Source of the DNA: a virus
Virus record (IMG/VR): IMGVR_UViG_3300036979_001044
Location: 1-64,000 of that record
Reading direction: 5' to 3' (one strand)
Length of the DNA: 64,000 nt
Below the pieces are notes generated by a model that did no database searches, was not told the origin of the DNA, and saw only the letters and a program-made list of their open reading frames with translations. Position numbers and translations under genes: made by a program. How positions within the stretch are numbered: position 1 is the first letter of the stretch; each line of letters starts with the position of its first letter. This document shows positions 2,865 to 13,136 of the stretch, in pieces.

Positions 2865-4764
2865 AACTCTCCTCTCTGATCGCACTGCGGCGATTCTTTT
2901 TCTCGATGATGATACGTTGATCGAAAAGACCCTGCATCTCAGCGTCGTGCTCGCTCACGTAAACCGCGCCTTTTTCCTTGGCCAGTTGCTCCAGCATCTC
3001 CACCATGGCCGTCTTACCTGATCGATCCAGGTGGCGGAATACCTCGTCCAGGATGAGCAGATCATAACGCTGCTTGGCCCGGCTGGAGATCAGATGAGAA
3101 AGGCCGAAGTCGATCGGAAAAGAGATACGCTGCTTCTCCCCGCCGCTGAGCGATCGGTAGTTGCGCTCGGTGATGGTGCCGTCCGGGTTCCAGCGGCTCA
3201 CCCGCACCTCGGGGGCATTGACCAGCTTCTTTCCCCGGGTCAACCGCTGCGCCTGGAACTGCACCCAGAATACCCCGCCGGTGAGTAGCCGCACCCAACG
3301 GTTGGCCGCCTGGGTCAACTCGTGCAGCCGGGCGTCCAGGATGTAGCTCTTGAGCCCCGAAGGGCCGAAGCCCTCTTTCCAGAATTCCAGAAAACGCCGG
3401 CGCTCGGTGATCTGCTCCAACTCCGCGCGAACGGTAGCCATGGATTGCTCCAGCTCCTGGATGCGCTGGGCCACCTGGTAGACTTGAGCGGCAAACGGAT
3501 TTGACTCTCCTGCCCGCGCCTGGATCGCCTTCCAGAGCTGCTCCAGATTGCGCTGCTCCTGTTCCACCGCCAACCACTGCCCCCCCAGCAAAGTGTACCG
3601 GGTCTGAGCGGTCTCGAAATGGCGGAGCACTTGCAGATGGCGTTGCGCGGCCTCGGCGCCAGCGATCGCCACCTTGGTCTCCTCGGCGTTGAAAGCCGCC
3701 TGCGCGGCCTGCACTAGCGCGGTTGCGTTCTTGTACGCCTCCTGCATAGCCAGCACATCCTGCTCCAGCGACTGGCGAGCAGCCTGGCGCAGGCTCTCCG
3801 GAACCGGTTGCCCGCACTGGTTGCACACCTCGCCAAGGGGTTTGTGCTTGTTCAACTTCTCCTGGGCATGCTGCAAACGGTAACGGGTGACCTCGTGGGC
3901 CTTCTGCGCCTCAGTCAGTTGATCCCGAAAAGCGGGCAGAACCCTGGGGGGAACAAGCGCCCCGTCGATCTCCTTGCGCAACCGTTCCAGCTCGGCCTTG
4001 GCCGCGGGCATGTGCTCGCGCAGATGTTGCTCCTGGCGTGCCCGTTCTGCCTCACGCGCCTGGTAGTCCATCGTCCATGAGTTTACTTCCAGGGTGCGCC
4101 GTTCCTCCCATACCCTGAGCTGAGCAGAAAAGTCCTGGGACTTGAGCCCATCCAACTCGCCTTGCTGGTAGTCCAACCGCGACGTGCGCTCCACCTCGCT
4201 CTCCTTGAGCCCGGCGAGCATCGTCTTGGTGGTTTCCAGAAATAGGTCGATCTCCTCGAACTGGAGAATGCGGGTCAAGGTCTGCATGCGCTCGCCGTCG
4301 GTCGAATCGGCGTAACGGATGAGATCATTCTGCCCGAAGTAGACCGCGGCGTGAAAGGTATCGCGATCCACCCCCAGCACCCGCTCGATACGCGCCTGGG
4401 TCTCCTTCACATCGAGCGCCTGGAGATCCTCCGTCCCAACCCAGAAGCGCAGGTTGGTCTCCTTGCCCCGCGACCGCTCGATCACCACCGGCTGGCCGGC
4501 GTCGTCGGTCAGCTCCACCCGCACCTGACAGGAACGACTCTCCTCGTTGACCACCGAATCCGCGTGATCCCCGCGAGGCACCCGGCCGAACAACCCCCAG
4601 TCCAGCGAATCAAACAGGCTGCTCTTGCCCGAACCGTTGGAGTCGCATCTCGGATCATCCAGATTCCGTCCGCAGACCAGCACCAACCCTTTTCTGGAAA
4701 AAGAGAAAACGTGATCTCCAAAAAAAGGCCCGTAATTATAAATGACTACCCGGTTTATCTTCAT
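2746..4764 (-). CDS. sbcC: SbcC/Rad50-like ATPase (T4 gp46-like)
   Basis: 672 aa, the size of T4 gp46-type subunits. Walker A is SNGSGKSS at residues 42-49. Long coiled-coil arms flank a Rad50 zinc hook CNQC at 314-317. The ABC signature SLSGGEKQR is at 538-546 and Walker B YDLLILDE at 567-574. With SbcD it forms an ATP-driven nuclease that resects DNA ends for recombination-dependent replication. Its ATG overlaps the stop of the small cysteine-rich gene (ATGA). The C-terminal ~50 residues beyond the usual domain end overlap the next gene and may be a poorly conserved tail. Confidence 0.93.
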   Translation of the reverse strand: MKINRVVIYNYGPFFGDHVFSFSRKGLVLVCGRNLDDPRCDSNGSGKSSLFDSLDWGLFGRVPRGDHADSVVNEESRSCQVRVELTDDAGQPVVIERSRGKETNLRFWVGTEDLQALDVKETQARIERVLGVDRDTFHAAVYFGQNDLIRYADSTDGERMQTLTRILQFEEIDLFLETTKTMLAGLKESEVERTSRLDYQQGELDGLKSQDFSAQLRVWEERRTLEVNSWTMDYQAREAERARQEQHLREHMPAAKAELERLRKEIDGALVPPRVLPAFRDQLTEAQKAHEVTRYRLQHAQEKLNKHKPLGEVCNQCGQPVPESLRQAARQSLEQDVLAMQEAYKNATALVQAAQAAFNAEETKVAIAGAEAAQRHLQVLRHFETAQTRYTLLGGQWLAVEQEQRNLEQLWKAIQARAGESNPFAAQVYQVAQRIQELEQSMATVRAELEQITERRRFLEFWKEGFGPSGLKSYILDARLHELTQAANRWVRLLTGGVFWVQFQAQRLTRGKKLVNAPEVRVSRWNPDGTITERNYRSLSGGEKQRISFPIDFGLSHLISSRAKQRYDLLILDEVFRHLDRSGKTAMVEMLEQLAKEKGAVYVSEHDAEMQGLFDQRIIIEKKNRRSAIREESYGTAQKSQPASAQAPHGIPAGALVESPRREPVRRTPVAR

Positions 4765-7318: not shown

Positions 7319-9085
7319 TCAACTCCCACGCAACTGCTGTGACAGTTCCGCTAGACTCGGAGGAGCCACCACCGGTGGTGCCGGAGGAGGCATTCCCGCA
7401 ACTGGCATGCTGCTACCCTGCATCTGCTGAGCAACTCCCGCGCACTGCTCCCGGAGGCCAGGCATGCACTCCTGGCAATAGCGGTCCTGGGGGGAGCACC
7501 GCCCGAAACAACGCTCCCGCCCACCAGGCAAAGCCATCCCAGGCGGCAGAGGGTAGGGGATAGCCCCCACTGTCTGCGCGTTAGCCATCTGCGAGAGAGG
7601 TGGCGGAGGAGGCACCCCCGGGTAACCCCCCGGGCCGGGTTGTGGGGCGTAAGGATTCCCAGCCGGAAGCGGTGCCGATTGCACTGGCGGAGGCATCGGC
7701 ATAGGCGGTGGAGCGCTCGCCGGTATCGACCCGGGAACCGGCGGTGGTGGCATTCCGAAAAATCCCGGGGGCGGGGGCGGAGGCGGAGGTTGCATTCCAG
7801 AAAATGCGGAGGGTGGAGGTTGCATTCCAGAAACTACCGGAGGCGGAGGTGCAAAATTCCCCGGAGGGGGCATCGCCTGTTGCGGGTAGAAATTGGGGGG
7901 CGCAGGAGCCTGCCCAGCACCAACTCCCTGGGCCCCGAATGTCTGCTGGTAGGGTTGAGCCATCATCGGCGGCGGCATGGCCACCGGAGCAGTTGGCGAT
8001 CCCACCGGATAGGGATTGGAATAGGGGTTTGGCCCCACCGGAGACATCGGAGCCCCAGGCATCGGTGCACCCATTGGCATCCCCGCCGCCTCACCCGGGA
8101 TCGGCAAACCAATCTCCTGGACAGCCCGCATCTGCTGCTCGGCGGTGTTCACCTTGTCCTCGGCGTCTAGATCCCACAACGCGCCGAGGGCCGGGTAGAA
8201 ATAAGGCGGGAGCGGCATGGGGTTCATGTCGACCACGCTGTACTCCACATCCATCTCGTTGGTCCCGGTCTTCCGCCGCTTGATCCGCATCGGCCGCCCG
8301 CTCATCGGGTGCACGATATGCAGGAGTCCGCGCTCGGCGATGAAATTCTGGATTGCCTCGTGAAGCATCGCCCCAGCTCCCAGAATGAACGGGCGCATTA
8401 CCCCACTGCGATCGATATGCCCCGTTGGGTTGTCGAGGACCGCCACATTGTAGAGATACTGCGTCCGGGTCTTCCCGTAGTCCTTGGCTCGCTTTTGCAT
8501 CATCATGTCGGACGAATTGATGGCCAAGTCCCGGGCTTTACAGATGAAACAACTCTCCGGTCCCGGGCAGTTCAGGCTCGATCCCCGCGGATGCTGAAAA
8601 GATCGCCAAAAATGCGACCGCACCCGCCGGTAGATGTTCCTCCCCGGCGCCCAAGCTGGTAGCAGATAAATCTGGAGAGCGACCTCATAACCAACCGGAA
8701 CATCATTGCCCCACTTCGGTTGACCCCCCGGGCCAGGAAACTTCACGTACTGCGCCCGAGATCCCCCACTCCTAGCCGCCTCCTCCTGGTACTCGCGGAA
8801 AGAAGCCCGGACCATCTCTTCATCGGGCATGTGAAAGGCCGGAACTCCTCCGGGCATCGTAAAAGTCGACGCCGGAGCCGCTAGAGGTGCGCCCCCGGGG
8901 TAGCCCGGAGGAGTGGCCGGGAACGGGGATGGAGCTGCCCCCGGGTACCCAGGAGCAACTGCCGACGGATAGCTGGGAGCCATCGCGGGGTAAGGCCCCG
9001 GTGCCGTAGGGGCAGGTACCGGAGCGTAACTAGGCCATTGAAAAGGCGCCGGGGGGTACCCGGCGGGATTCCCAAATTGATTCAT
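7319..9085 (-). CDS. gp32-like single-stranded DNA-binding protein with very long Pro-rich arms
   Basis: 588 aa, about twice T4 gp32. The ATG at 9085 follows GGAGGT with 7-nt spacing. Residues 1-85 are Pro/Ala/Tyr/Gly-rich. A folded core spans about 85-320 with a zinc-binding set H158, C173, C179 and C182 (CPGPESCFIC), as in gp32-type proteins. Residues about 335-535 are a long proline-rich region with runs of eight prolines. Near the C-terminus is a second cysteine cluster (RCFGRCSPQDRYCQEC). Assignment to ssDNA binding rests on the zinc motif and on sitting between recA and a UvsY-like gene. A matched promoter-like element lies just upstream. Confidence 0.7.
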   Translation of the reverse strand: MNQFGNPAGYPPAPFQWPSYAPVPAPTAPGPYPAMAPSYPSAVAPGYPGAAPSPFPATPPGYPGGAPLAAPASTFTMPGGVPAFHMPDEEMVRASFREYQEEAARSGGSRAQYVKFPGPGGQPKWGNDVPVGYEVALQIYLLPAWAPGRNIYRRVRSHFWRSFQHPRGSSLNCPGPESCFICKARDLAINSSDMMMQKRAKDYGKTRTQYLYNVAVLDNPTGHIDRSGVMRPFILGAGAMLHEAIQNFIAERGLLHIVHPMSGRPMRIKRRKTGTNEMDVEYSVVDMNPMPLPPYFYPALGALWDLDAEDKVNTAEQQMRAVQEIGLPIPGEAAGMPMGAPMPGAPMSPVGPNPYSNPYPVGSPTAPVAMPPPMMAQPYQQTFGAQGVGAGQAPAPPNFYPQQAMPPPGNFAPPPPVVSGMQPPPSAFSGMQPPPPPPPPGFFGMPPPPVPGSIPASAPPPMPMPPPVQSAPLPAGNPYAPQPGPGGYPGVPPPPPLSQMANAQTVGAIPYPLPPGMALPGGRERCFGRCSPQDRYCQECMPGLREQCAGVAQQMQGSSMPVAGMPPPAPPVVAPPSLAELSQQLRGS

Positions 9086-9102
9086 GTTTGCTACCTCCAT
9101 GG

Positions 9103-9134
9103 GTTAAATACTGGCGATACGACCAAATTGCTAA
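9103..9134 (-). promoter_or_regulatory. promoter-like element A upstream of the ssDNA-binding protein gene
   Basis: On the minus strand, TTAGCAA is followed after 11 nt by CGCCAGTATTTAAC, ending about 18 nt before the gene's start codon. An identical arrangement (same two blocks, same 11-nt spacing) occurs at 22132-22163. The blocks could be a -35 (TTAGCA) and a -10 (TATTTA) separated by 18 nt. The match between copies is seen in the sequence; promoter function is inferred. Confidence 0.5.
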
Positions 9135-9151
9135 GACACCTAGCGAAAAAC

Positions 9152-9670
9152 TCAAACCGAAAGACGAGGAGCCGCATCCTCCTGCGAGCGCACTACCGAT
9201 GTCTTCAGCATTTCCTTCTTCGCGCGAAAACCTTCCAGAATCGCCTGAGCCACGTTGTAGGCCTCCTCGGCCCGTTCCAGTTTCTTCTGGTGCACAAGAT
9301 ACAGCGGATCAGTCCGCATCTGCGCCTCCAGCAAGTACTGCGGCGGCTTCTTTTTCTCGTCGGCGGTACTGGCCAACGCCACGGTGAGCCCGTCTCTCCA
9401 GATCCGGTAGTCGCGTTCCTCGATCTCCCAGACCCGTTTTGCCTGAGCCGTCAACCGACCCCAGCGCATGATCTGGGCGGATACCACCTGAACCTGTTCC
9501 ACCAAACCCGCTTCCCAGATGACCAGCTCGTTCACGATTTTCCCATCAATAATGGGCCCCACTGGCGCCAAATCGCCGGTTCCAGTGACATCGACAATCA
9601 CGACCGGATTGATGAGAGCCAGCCGCTGCACGATTGCTTCAAGCGTCATGTGCTCTACTCGTTTGTTCAT
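9152..9670 (-). CDS. putative recombination mediator, UvsY-like
   Basis: 172 aa. After an N-terminal hydrophobic segment (VVIVDVTGTGDL), the protein is helical. A central block contains KKKPPQYLLEAQMRTDPLY, followed by a helix ending GFRAKKEMLKTS. That pattern (K-P-T/P, then a segment with D-P-x-Y, then K-x-x-x-L) is what I associate with UvsY-type mediators and their relatives. Its place directly before the ssDNA-binding protein and RecA genes fits. I cannot confirm it by alignment, so this is family-pattern inference. Confidence 0.42.
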   Translation of the reverse strand: MNKRVEHMTLEAIVQRLALINPVVIVDVTGTGDLAPVGPIIDGKIVNELVIWEAGLVEQVQVVSAQIMRWGRLTAQAKRVWEIEERDYRIWRDGLTVALASTADEKKKPPQYLLEAQMRTDPLYLVHQKKLERAEEAYNVAQAILEGFRAKKEMLKTSVVRSQEDAAPRLSV

Positions 9671-9671
9671 G

Positions 9672-10097
9672 CTAAGTCTCCCCTTCTGCCAGCAACGCCG
9701 ACTCTGATCCAGGCTCCAAAGCCTCTCGATAACGCCGTCGAGCGATATCCCATTCCGTAGTCAACACGGACAGAGCCTCTCGCTCATCAGCCTCAATCAC
9801 CTGGATGGCCTGGGCGATCTCCTGTTCTACCATCTGGCAGACCCGCGTTTTATCCGCGCTGATAACCCCCATCCGATCTGCGTACTCGCTGTCTAACTGC
9901 TTTCGCGATCGGGCTAGCCATTTCTCGGTGATCTCCTTCTGCTCCTGAAACTCGCGGTGTACCACTGCGATCTTGTCCGTTCCCTTTCGCATCGAAGCCC
10001 GCTTCCGCGCCTCGATATGATCAGTAATGACCAATCTTCGCTGGGTGTAGAGTTTCTCCGCCTCACGTAATTCTTGTTCCTCTGCGGTCAATGCCAT
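9672..10097 (-). CDS. hypothetical coiled-coil protein, 141 aa
   Basis: Almost entirely charged helix (many Glu, Arg, Gln), consistent with a long coiled coil. One cysteine, no membrane segment. ATG after GTAGGAG with 6-nt spacing. It lies between DNA polymerase and the UvsY-like gene, so a replication accessory role is possible but unproven. Confidence 0.55.
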   Translation of the reverse strand: MALTAEEQELREAEKLYTQRRLVITDHIEARKRASMRKGTDKIAVVHREFQEQKEITEKWLARSRKQLDSEYADRMGVISADKTRVCQMVEQEIAQAIQVIEADEREALSVLTTEWDIARRRYREALEPGSESALLAEGET

Positions 10098-10106
10098 GAC
10101 TGTCTC

Positions 10107-12881
10107 CTACGCTTTGGGCAACTTGGTTTTGTCCGACCAACTTCGCACCGTGTAATCACCATCCACTCGAATCGGGATAGGTGAAAATTCCGAATAATCC
10201 TCCATCAGGCGCTTGACCGCGATAGCGACCTCGGGAAGCACCTCTGCCGCACAATCGAGTTGGATCTCATCGTGCACGGTAGAGATGAGCTTGGCCGGAA
10301 GTGCGCGATCCTTGAGGTAGTGGGCAATCCGGACCAGGGACTCCTTGGTCAACTCGGCAGCCGTTCCCTGAATCAAGCTGGCGATGGCCTCTCGCTCAGC
10401 CTTCCCCCGTTCGAAATTATCAGAAATGTTCATCCCCTGTACTCGCCGAGGTCTACCAAACAAATTTTGAAAATAGCCCTTCTGCCGGCGGACCTGGGCC
10501 CAGAAAGTATCCCGAAAATCAACGATACCGTGGTACCGCTCAAAAAATTTGTTGAAATAAGACTCCGCTTCTTCCCTACTCACATGCACTTGGCGAGCGA
10601 ATCCAACCGGAGAAAGTCCGTAGCTGTTCGATACCACCCGCCCCTCTACCGTAAACCGATGCCGGGGCCCCGCGTTAATCAGATCGTAGACTTTCGCCTG
10701 CTGCGATTGAGCAAATTCTCCGAACGAGTCACCAGTCGCAGATTTTCTGGAGAGTAATCCCCATCGTTGTCGGTGCGATCGAAGTCCAATCCCCGGAAAT
10801 CCGATTCTGGAAACTTCCTCAAAGCCCACCGGACAAAATGCTCCCGTGACTTGAACTGAACCTTGATCCCCCGCCCCTTGTAGTTCTTCGAGGAAACGTG
10901 CGTATCCCGCTCGCAGCGCTGCACCATAGCATCGTAACGCCCACCCAAAGTATCTGCGCGCTTGTCGTGGTATTTCCCCTTCTGACAAGCGCAAAAAGAA
11001 TGACCAGCGCGAACATTGTCTACCAAAGACCATTTGATCGCCCCGCAACTCGCGCACCGCAACTCCACCACCCGACGCAGCCTCCCATCGCCCGCTCGAA
11101 TCTTTCCCACCTGCCCGGTCAACCGAAACGAACCGCACAGGCGTTTCGCCAATCGCGCCAACAGCAAGGCGTCGGGAATAAATTGCGGATGCCGCATCCC
11201 GCAAGGTTGCGGCACCCCCGTCTCGTAAATAGACGACATGATCTGGAGTTGCCGTAATCCCGTCATAAGTCAAAACCTCCTCAACACCACGGCACACCAA
11301 ACCATCATGCTTCACCCACTCAACCCCATCCCAAAGAAGATGATGATCTTGCACGCGCTCAATTGGGACCAACCCATCCTGCTGAGTCAACACCCGCTGC
11401 CCCTCCGAGATACAAAGCCCGAAATTAATCACTTTCGCCAGCCGCCGCATAGCTTTCTCAGCGGTCCCAAAAACTTCGATCGAAGTCCGTGTGTGGATAT
11501 CCTCGCCGTTCATGTACGCGGCAACCAAGATGGGATCTTTCGTGTAGTAAGCCAAAACGCGCAATTCGATCTGCGAATAATCAAAAAATAATCGCACCCA
11601 ACCCGGTCGCCCGACCACGTAGGATCTACGGATCGACCAGGGATCAGTACCGCCTTCCTCTAAACTTTTCCCCGAGTGTTTCTTGGCCCGATCGTCATCA
11701 TCTACCGGCTGATTCTGGAAGTTTGGGCTCTTGCAGCTGAGCCTTCCAGAAGTCGTTCCCATCTGCTGAAAATCAGGGTGCAGATAATTTCTGGAATCCA
11801 GTCGATCGAGAATTGATAGGGTATAGGTATTGGCCAGCTTTTCCGCCTCACGCCAGGCGAGGATGCGCTCGATGGCTGGGTGGACGTGGGCGAACTCGGC
11901 GAGTACCTCCTTGTCCACCGCGAACTGCTTAGCCGTACCCTTGGCTCCCCCACGAGTCATTTTATGGAGTCGACAACCGAGATCCTCCAGTAACAATTTC
12001 CGGATTACCGCATCAGAGCCAAGTTCGAGCTTTCTCCCTCCAAGCAATACGGTGATCTCCGCCTCCACCCGTTGCAGCTCCAACTGCAACCGCAACCGCA
12101 ACTTGGAGAGGTACTCGACATCAATGGCGATACCCTGCTCCTCCATGTCACAGATCACGTCCAGAAGATCCATCTCGGTCTTCCAGATTCTGGCGTAGCG
12201 CTGCGAGATAGAACGATGGGTCTGCTCGTAGAAAATATGGAGTCGATTGGTAAACTCTGTATCCCCGCAGGCATATTCCCCAAGTAGCCAGATAGGGACC
12301 TGGGAGTAGCCATACTGCGCTCGGTACGCCTCCACGCCCATCCGCTGCTGCTTGGCCAGGCGGTGGACCATCTCATCTACTCGCCCCTCGCCCACTTTGG
12401 CCTGGCTCTCCCCGAGATCCTCAACTGCCCGAGTCTTCAGCGCCACATACCGATTTTCGTCATAGAGCTTGGCTGCGATCATCGTATCGTACCAGGGAGC
12501 CGCGACCACCCAACCCTCCCGGTTCGCCATGTGCTTATCAAACTTCAGATGATGGCCGATCTTGAACTGAGGACCGGCGAGCAACTTGCGGATGTCCGGG
12601 GAGACCCGTTCGATATCGAGCTGGGCCTCCCCGGTGCAGTGCCGAAAGGGCGTGTAGAAATGATGTGTCTGCCCGTCGACCGTGCCAGCCAACGCCACCC
12701 CGCAGATCCGACTCTCTCTGAACCACTCCAACCCAGAAGTCTCGGTGTCGAATACCAGGATCTTGCTCGATTCCAGAAAACGGATCATTTGCTCGAATCG
12801 ATCCCCGGTCAAAACGATATGGTAATCGGGACGACGACGTTCCAGATCGTAGTCGTTAAATCCCGTCATCTGCACCGACAT
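10107..12881 (-). CDS. polA: family A DNA polymerase interrupted by an intein
   Basis: 924 codons. The 3'-5' exonuclease domain starts with FDTETSGLEW at about 44-53. Polymerase motif A is DYSQIELR (434-441). Motif B is split: RRLAKVINFGL, then a 263-residue intein (490-752), then SYGLSPVGFARQ. Motif C is HDE (870-872). After splicing, a ~661-aa enzyme lacking the 5' nuclease domain remains, as in T7-type and other phage replicative polymerases. The intact exteins on both sides suggest a working gene whose activity depends on protein splicing. Confidence 0.93.
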   Translation of the reverse strand: MSVQMTGFNDYDLERRRPDYHIVLTGDRFEQMIRFLESSKILVFDTETSGLEWFRESRICGVALAGTVDGQTHHFYTPFRHCTGEAQLDIERVSPDIRKLLAGPQFKIGHHLKFDKHMANREGWVVAAPWYDTMIAAKLYDENRYVALKTRAVEDLGESQAKVGEGRVDEMVHRLAKQQRMGVEAYRAQYGYSQVPIWLLGEYACGDTEFTNRLHIFYEQTHRSISQRYARIWKTEMDLLDVICDMEEQGIAIDVEYLSKLRLRLQLELQRVEAEITVLLGGRKLELGSDAVIRKLLLEDLGCRLHKMTRGGAKGTAKQFAVDKEVLAEFAHVHPAIERILAWREAEKLANTYTLSILDRLDSRNYLHPDFQQMGTTSGRLSCKSPNFQNQPVDDDDRAKKHSGKSLEEGGTDPWSIRRSYVVGRPGWVRLFFDYSQIELRVLAYYTKDPILVAAYMNGEDIHTRTSIEVFGTAEKAMRRLAKVINFGLCISEGQRVLTQQDGLVPIERVQDHHLLWDGVEWVKHDGLVCRGVEEVLTYDGITATPDHVVYLRDGGAATLRDAASAIYSRRLAVGAIGETPVRFVSVDRAGGKDSSGRWEAASGGGVAVRELRGDQMVFGRQCSRWSFFLRLSEGEIPRQARRYFGWALRCYGAALRAGYARFLEELQGAGDQGSVQVTGAFCPVGFEEVSRIGFPGIGLRSHRQRWGLLSRKSATGDSFGEFAQSQQAKVYDLINAGPRHRFTVEGRVVSNSYGLSPVGFARQVHVSREEAESYFNKFFERYHGIVDFRDTFWAQVRRQKGYFQNLFGRPRRVQGMNISDNFERGKAEREAIASLIQGTAAELTKESLVRIAHYLKDRALPAKLISTVHDEIQLDCAAEVLPEVAIAVKRLMEDYSEFSPIPIRVDGDYTVRSWSDKTKLPKA
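10626..11414 (-). mobile_element. intein in polymerase motif B, carrying an out-of-frame HNH gene
   Basis: 263 residues from Cys1 (TGT at 11412-11414) to Asn263 (AAC at 10626-10628), with Ser as +1 extein residue. Block A is CISEGQRVLTQQ. Block B is ATPDHVVYL with the T-x-x-H signature. Block F is KVYDLINAGPRHRFTVEGR. Block G ends VVSN, so the usual penultimate His is Ser; other inteins tolerate this. The insertion splits NFGL and SYGLS in the most conserved part of the polymerase, a typical intein site. The middle of the intein has no recognisable in-frame endonuclease; its DNA instead encodes one in another frame. Confidence 0.9.
10679..11266 (-). CDS. HNH homing endonuclease in an alternative frame inside the intein
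   Basis: 195 aa, read one base over from the polymerase frame. It has its own AGGAGG nine bases before the ATG, embedded in the intein codons for EEV. Cysteines at C71-C74 and C92-C94 form a likely zinc site. Residues 109-147 match the YDAMVQRC...NYKGRGI block of phage HNH enzymes. The HNH core is DFDRTDNDGDYSPENLRLVT at 161-180, followed by an N-rich basic end. Such enzymes make a site-specific cut that copies the surrounding element into intein-free alleles. Both frames remain open for 588 nt, which indicates overprinting under selection. Confidence 0.85.
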   Translation of the reverse strand: MTGLRQLQIMSSIYETGVPQPCGMRHPQFIPDALLLARLAKRLCGSFRLTGQVGKIRAGDGRLRRVVELRCASCGAIKWSLVDNVRAGHSFCACQKGKYHDKRADTLGGRYDAMVQRCERDTHVSSKNYKGRGIKVQFKSREHFVRWALRKFPESDFRGLDFDRTDNDGDYSPENLRLVTRSENLLNRSRRKSTI

Positions 12882-12890
12882 CCCGTACCC

Positions 12891-13136
12891 CTATCCCGGA
12901 AAAATAAGCGAAAGAGCTGGGAGAAGCGGGGAACCTCTATCGACCATCTGGGCCAGGAACTCCACCTCAGAAAAAGTCAGATTGACCGTTCCCCCGTCCT
13001 TGCTGGCCCCCTGAGAGCCAACCCGAACCCAACAATTGAGCCCTGGTATCCAGGCCACAATCTGCATGATCTGCGCCCCGCTGGGCAACACCGCCACCGG
13101 AGGAAGCCCCGGCCAGTTGACCTTGGTCAACTGCAT
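12891..13136 (-). CDS. small hypothetical protein, about 81 aa
   Basis: The protein (start MQLTKVNWPGLPP) has regular hydrophobic strands (PVAVLPSGAQIMQIVAW) and ends PALSLIFPG just before the polymerase start. The ATG at 13136 lacks a strong ribosome-binding site, and a GTG 18 nt upstream is an alternative. Reading further upstream runs into the shadow of the preceding gene, so I limit it to this part. Function unknown. Confidence 0.45.
   Translation of the reverse strand: MQLTKVNWPGLPPVAVLPSGAQIMQIVAWIPGLNCWVRVGSQGASKDGGTVNLTFSEVEFLAQMVDRGSPLLPALSLIFPG

Follow-up and report, generated by a model that had tools for sequence, protein, structure and literature searches.

An HNH endonuclease gene nested out of frame in the intein of a viral family A DNA polymerase gene

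The window analysed (bases 1 to 64,000 of a virus record of 96,810 bases) carries on its minus strand a family A DNA polymerase gene (PolA) interrupted by an intein, the DNA of which in turn contains an HNH endonuclease gene in another frame (Table 1). Pfam DNA_pol_A matched the polymerase at 7.2e-83 in two stretches flanking the insert, with the break at motif B, and a 3'-5' exonuclease domain was located at the N-terminus. The extein junction reads NFGL/SYGL. The insert contains Cys1, block B T56-x-x-H59 (TATPDH), block F VYDLINAGPRHRFTV (with G249-P250-R251), the terminal Asn263 and a +1 Ser, and the splicing residues were invariant or nearly so across the intein family surveyed below. Both intein halves are located on one continuous frame, so that the gene is neither a fractured gene nor one encoding a split intein. 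The HNH open reading frame (ORF) starts 148 nucleotides past the start of the intein, which places it in the +1 frame, and its end also falls within the intein. A 593-aa ORF near the polymerase (positions 7319-9100, minus strand) combines a Cys-rich core (NCPGPESCFICKA) with a long tail rich in Pro and Met; its product resembles a single-stranded DNA-binding protein, apart from the unusual tail.

Table 1. Coordinates of the polymerase gene, the intein and the nested HNH gene in the window
Feature	Position	Strand	Remarks
Family A DNA polymerase (PolA) with intein	10107..12881	-	Single open frame, 924 aa
Intein, 263 aa	10626..11414	-	PolA residues 490-752, in motif B, NFGL / C...N / SYGL; model and Foldseek
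Intein N-terminal splicing half, residues 1-93 (Cys1, block B T56-x-x-H59)	11136..11414	-	Invariant columns; pLDDT 83-98
Overprinted linker, intein frame, predicted disordered	10695..11135	-	pLDDT mostly 36-56; identity no better than in the unread third frame
Intein C-terminal splicing half (VYDLINAGPRHRFTVEGRVVSN)	10626..10694	-	Invariant columns; pLDDT about 95-97
HNH endonuclease gene, 195 aa	10679..11266	-	+1 frame relative to polymerase/intein; wholly inside the intein DNA
Shine-Dalgarno-like GAGGAGG	11276..11282	-	Within the V-E-E-V codons of the intein, 9 nt upstream of the HNH ATG
Likely HNH start codon ATG	11264..11266	-	Spans intein codons Y50-D51

In the AlphaFold model of the intein, residues 1-93 and 238-263 were predicted with confidence (pLDDT about 95-98 at the ends), while the linker had values of mostly 36-56. 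Foldseek searches with this model returned the Npu DnaE, Ssp DnaB, RecA and gp41-1 inteins as top matches (probability about 1, E-values from 2.7e-3); a profile search against the sequences of solved structures gave a single, weak match, to a DnaE intein. The confidently modelled ends and the intein matches together identify a HINT fold, and with a full set of splicing blocks in polymerase motif B the insert is an intein, as the original prediction had held. PHROG 26005, labelled as being of unknown function, matched the N-terminal block of the window intein (2e-11) as well as most of the intein at one HNH-less locus (L043), and is probably an intein family.

The HNH protein was modelled by AlphaFold2 with a mean pLDDT of 88.6, confidently so for residues 28 to 186 approximately. 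This folded part covers intein residues 76-234 or thereabouts, and consequently both frames specify confidently folded protein over only about 18 codons. Foldseek found no confident match to the HNH model in the PDB, and the HNH profile gave only weak zinc-binding matches among the sequences of solved structures. Profile matches were obtained to the phage HNH families PHROG 374 (2.5e-23) and PHROG 3377 (1.8e-19), and Pfam HNH_3 matched at 0.0027, below the Pfam cut-off. The zinc cysteines and core residues were invariant among the aligned HNH proteins. In the HNH motif (D163-R164...N175...N184), Asp163 was present in 51, Asn175 in 55 and Asn184 in 42 of the 55 aligned members, and Arg164, next to the conserved D163, in all 55. 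The position of Arg164 is that of the catalytic His in HNH homing enzymes such as I-HmuI; activity of the HNH protein cannot be taken for granted, because an Arg replaces this His in every aligned member.

A first scan yielded a phage locus (L018) whose polymerase is 24-26% identical to that of the window and which has the same intein with the same HNH gene in the same wrong frame; all other first-scan loci with an intein N-block also had an out-of-frame HNH gene. Searches with the intein alignment retrieved 80 viral loci and 13 loci in bacterial genomes, to which isolated phages were added, and all six frames were scanned with profiles for the intein N-block, the intein C-block and the HNH core. 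Loci were thus selected by their intein blocks and not by their open frames. After removal of identical inteins, 101 distinct inteins from IMG/VR, bacterial genomes and isolated phages were available, 88 of which contained an out-of-frame HNH gene (73 in the +1 and 15 in the +2 frame), while 13 had no HNH. In none of the 88 was the HNH found in the intein frame by the six-frame profiles, as it would be in the canonical arrangement. An N-block with its C-block in another segment was encountered only once (L098), and two contigs ended before the C-block. The recurrence of this HNH family out of frame in 88 of 101 inteins, and never in frame, excludes a chance origin of the nested gene.

The arrangement spans very divergent inteins from many phages and from several bacterial phyla (prophages or contigs of metagenome-assembled genomes), with insertion points at several places in PolA motif B, in motif A (DSSQIE/C), at GGK/CENVVQ and in SF2 helicases. 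The double-coded layout is therefore real, widespread and old, a variant of known mobile inteins, and the observation of an intein combined with an out-of-frame HNH gene was confirmed, both in the window, where the 195-codon ORF predicts a separate endonuclease and lies over the intein linker, and by the original prediction's proposed search for the same arrangement in other phages. The accompanying suggestion that the arrangement is young did not hold, given this spread over hosts and sites and the multiple register origins described below. Several loci carried more than one intein or had other peculiarities. One PolA ORF of 1493 aa (L091:1413-5891) apparently contains three, namely LNC/FSAGHELLTPDGW...VVHQ, one in motif A with an overprinted HNH gene, and an HNH-less one further down. 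A PolA fragment (L110:1751-4297) has two inteins of the family in different polymerase parts, the first HNH-less and the second with a +2 HNH gene. At L055:945-4979, PolA and a uracil-DNA glycosylase superfamily domain share an ORF whose intein bears an overprinted HNH gene, and in Salmonella phage vB-SeS-01 an intein is annotated in the helicase gene that immediately follows the polymerase as well (L119:5893-7180).

Candidate HNH start sites were associated with Shine-Dalgarno (SD) sequences more strongly than expected, the best SD-antiSD energy being on average -8.7 kcal/mol relative to -4.4 (sd 0.26) in a null of matched host-gene regions. Many +1 loci had AGGAGGT in (K/R)-E-V codons, followed by an ATG straddling Y-D/G of a recurrent KEVITYDG at intein residue 49-50; others had AAGGAG with GATGTC at intein residue 44-45. 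GAG was used at the E-V codons in 38 of 42 cases (25.5 expected from host-gene usage, z 4.3). By a simple pattern, 17 of the 73 +1 members lacked an SD. Initiation sites are conserved across much of the +1 class. Two candidate lines of evidence were dropped: the SD of the window taken by itself, as AGGAGG plus ATG arises in about 20% of random synonymous codings, and the SD-like site of the +2 class, which is forced by conserved WDGVEW codons. A start codon was also present at the aligned position in eight of the 13 HNH-less mini-inteins, several of them with an SD, and the SD/ATG site may for this reason predate the HNH gene.

Selection on the two frames was assessed by permuting synonymous codons within each HNH core, which preserved both the HNH protein and codon usage. 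No stop codons were observed in the intein frame, as compared to 508 (+1) and 42 (+2) expected, and the third frame of the HNH cores contained 637 (+1) and 169 (+2) stops. In the window, permutation introduced on average about nine stops into the intein frame, the actual count being zero. Among 18 pairs of related loci, polymerase codon position 3 received 52% of the substitutions outside the overlap (+1 pairs), whereas inside it the HNH third codon position took 54% (+1) and 51% (+2); this shift was significant by chi-square (p 4e-120 and 7e-18, respectively). Comparison of the window overlap with nine relatives gave identities of 61-67% in the HNH frame, 27-41% in the intein frame and 26-38% in the third frame. 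The pattern recurred over short distances among isolated Salmonella phages; between SETP3 and vB-SeS-01, for example, differences at codon positions 1/2/3 numbered 3/2/38 in the exteins and 4/28/11 in the HNH core (+2 register). Apparent stops in two further sequences were excluded from the Salmonella phage comparison, one (L121, phage SS3e) differing from its relatives by two single-base insertions and the other (L126) representing a stretch that began out of phase. From the codon-position shift and the frame identities it follows that the HNH protein, where present, is under purifying selection and that nothing beyond openness and phase is maintained in the overlapping intein frame; the polymerase gene is indeed held open in two frames, as had been proposed.

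In an HNH tree built by a quick method, the +2 members formed one group (support 93), while the +1 members were split into a large group including the window (69 members) and a small group (four members, among them APSE-1 and Caulobacter phage GB2A), which branched with the +2 group (support 97). This position of the small group implies two capture or register events as a minimum, and probably three. HNH-less inteins were scattered in the intein tree (11 changes for 12 rows, in a tree of few columns and weak resolution), which suggests repeated loss of the HNH gene. One row from each of two loci (L069 and L110), pairing an outer N-block with an inner C-block, was left out of the trees. Some mini-inteins (for example, L060, L092 and L102) retained pieces alignable with the overprinted linker. 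In two loci from one metagenome (L069 and L075), the flanks were 99.5-99.8% identical and a clean in-frame deletion had removed 531 bp (177 codons) from the HNH region of L069, the deletion ends sharing 4 bp of sequence. At both loci a single PolA contains two inteins (N-blocks at 3501/4422 and 3265/4186, respectively), the HNH deletion in the second intein amounting to a natural knockout.

Intein-free polymerase relatives, which the original prediction had proposed as a check, do exist: closely related Salmonella phages occur with and without the intein at one site. A probe made of the joined flanks matched many Salmonella and Escherichia phages in two pieces (with intein) and many in one piece (without) at similar identity (94.8% for skrot, for example). 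Such patchy presence, as judged from sequence comparison, is the pattern of a mobile element. The HNH-less relatives, the 531-bp deletion and the intein-free Salmonella phages all fit a homing cycle. Conservation of the intein in relatives that have lost the HNH frame had been put forward as evidence against the arrangement; such relatives do occur, but a homing cycle predicts them, and the HNH genes that are present are under purifying selection.

Taken together, the locus very probably represents a mobile intein whose homing endonuclease is a separate, internally initiated HNH protein read in the +1 frame inside the polymerase intein. According to this model, the whole polymerase-intein ORF would be translated, and the N- and C-terminal intein halves would fold around the disordered linker, excise themselves and restore motif B, as the motifs and the structure model indicate. 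Ribosomes would also initiate within the intein coding region at the internal SD and ATG, yielding the HNH protein, whose most likely action is to cut or nick polymerase genes lacking the intein, at the insertion site or close to it; repair of the cut gene would then copy the intein together with its passenger HNH gene. The intein frame across the HNH gene would be selected only for being stop-free and in phase, and once homing no longer pays, the HNH gene could be lost by in-frame deletion, leaving a mini-intein. We infer that an intein can accommodate an endonuclease gene complete with its stop codon only if that gene is out of frame, since an in-frame HNH stop would truncate the polymerase. 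This argument accounts for the absence of in-frame cases in the present intein family and is silent on other intein families.

It is unlikely that the HNH protein, translated and active, acts less in intein homing than in regulation or in phage competition (by cutting rivals or by marker exclusion). Phages commonly encode free-standing HNH enzymes of the same families, but at these loci the HNH gene is always located inside the intein and shares its loss or retention, and the inteins show the scatter over sites and hosts that is typical of homing elements; homing and exclusion are, moreover, not mutually exclusive. Production of the HNH protein by programmed ribosomal frameshifting, as a fusion to the N-terminal polymerase/intein part, appears very unlikely. 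The shared strand and forward offset would allow it, and in several loci the HNH frame is open for some distance upstream of the proposed start, but strong internal SDs and starts recur at the same positions in many +1 loci, and the HNH frame often opens only just upstream of the start (in the window, it runs stop-to-stop from 11269 to 10682, with the ATG at 11266), leaving little room for a shift site. That the HNH gene is a decayed relic whose second frame stayed open by chance is highly improbable: the HNH-less fraction of the inteins, the two short HNH genes of 139 aa (L051 and L101, the former without a start codon upstream of the core) and the missing catalytic His would agree with decay, but the HNH frame is under purifying selection in the +1 and +2 registers alike and also over the recent divergence of the Salmonella phages, and the zinc cysteines and core residues have remained invariant. 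Finally, a group I intron, which phage polymerase genes often carry together with HNH genes (PMC3428280), or a ShiLan-type insertion, which is not spliced, leaves the host frame open and contains an out-of-frame HNH gene (PMC11855218), can practically be dismissed, since no Rfam match was found up to an E-value of 1 in window positions 9000-13000 and the insert has both the full set of splicing blocks and, in the model, the HINT fold.

The internally initiated, overprinted HNH gene shares features with several known systems. Canonical large inteins likewise combine a splicing domain with a homing-type endonuclease between blocks B and F, but there the LAGLIDADG or HNH domain is in frame, whereas the endonuclease of the window is a separate polypeptide in another frame. 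The HNH genes for I-HmuI, I-BasI, I-TslI and I-PfoP3I similarly overlap self-splicing elements of phage DNA polymerase genes (PMC3428280), the splicing element being RNA in those group I intron systems and protein in the window. Out-of-frame HNH genes have been described in phage methylase insertions (the ShiLan domain and Pacc40; Arsenault, Gosselin and Gogarten 2025, PMC11855218), which also leave the host frame open and have a patchy distribution. The authors found no intein or intron, splicing motifs or ribosome-binding site in these insertions, whereas that of the window is an intein with splicing domains and many members of its family have an SD. In the records of phage APSE-1 (NC_000935), P46 (HNH) is annotated inside P45 (DNA polymerase), and as in the window the HNH gene is in the +1 frame inside an intein-bearing polymerase gene. 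The intein site differs from that of the window (GGKS/C...N/CENICQ), and the APSE-1 HNH protein, unlike that of the window, belongs to the small separate group (with L075, L107 and L117) branching with the +2 class.

A literature search largely confined to published open-access papers found no description of a class of inteins with overprinted HNH genes. In PMC11855218, two works are cited on overlapping reading frames in phages: the preprint by Gosselin et al. (bioRxiv 2025.01.02.630785), concerned with 'non-canonical architecture' in inteins of actinobacteriophages, and Gorbalenya 1998 ('Non-canonical inteins'). Both may, judging from that context, describe the same arrangement; whether the class has so far gone undescribed is about an even call. 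Equally balanced is the broader proposal that phage polymerases and helicases harbour a large class of mobile inteins, hitherto without a name, in which the endonuclease exists only in overprinted, internally initiated form on a disordered linker and was captured out of frame at least twice, probably three times, in two registers.

The arrangement would represent a second way to build a mobile intein, with endonuclease and splicing domain as separate proteins on shared DNA, so that each can vary in amount and evolve independently of the other, and the enzyme escapes annotation pipelines. It also provides a natural and replicated example of long overprinting on one strand, with the rule that a folded protein in one frame lies over a disordered linker in the other, and offers a reason for the choice of frame. 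The layout is present in culturable phages (of Salmonella and Escherichia, with intein-plus and intein-free relatives, and of Caulobacter and Shewanella), which makes homing, dual translation and loss directly testable. In one of the Salmonella phages, SS3e (L121:610-3710), an HNH coding sequence is annotated between two polymerase coding sequences, the frame being broken by the two single-base insertions, which are possibly sequencing errors.
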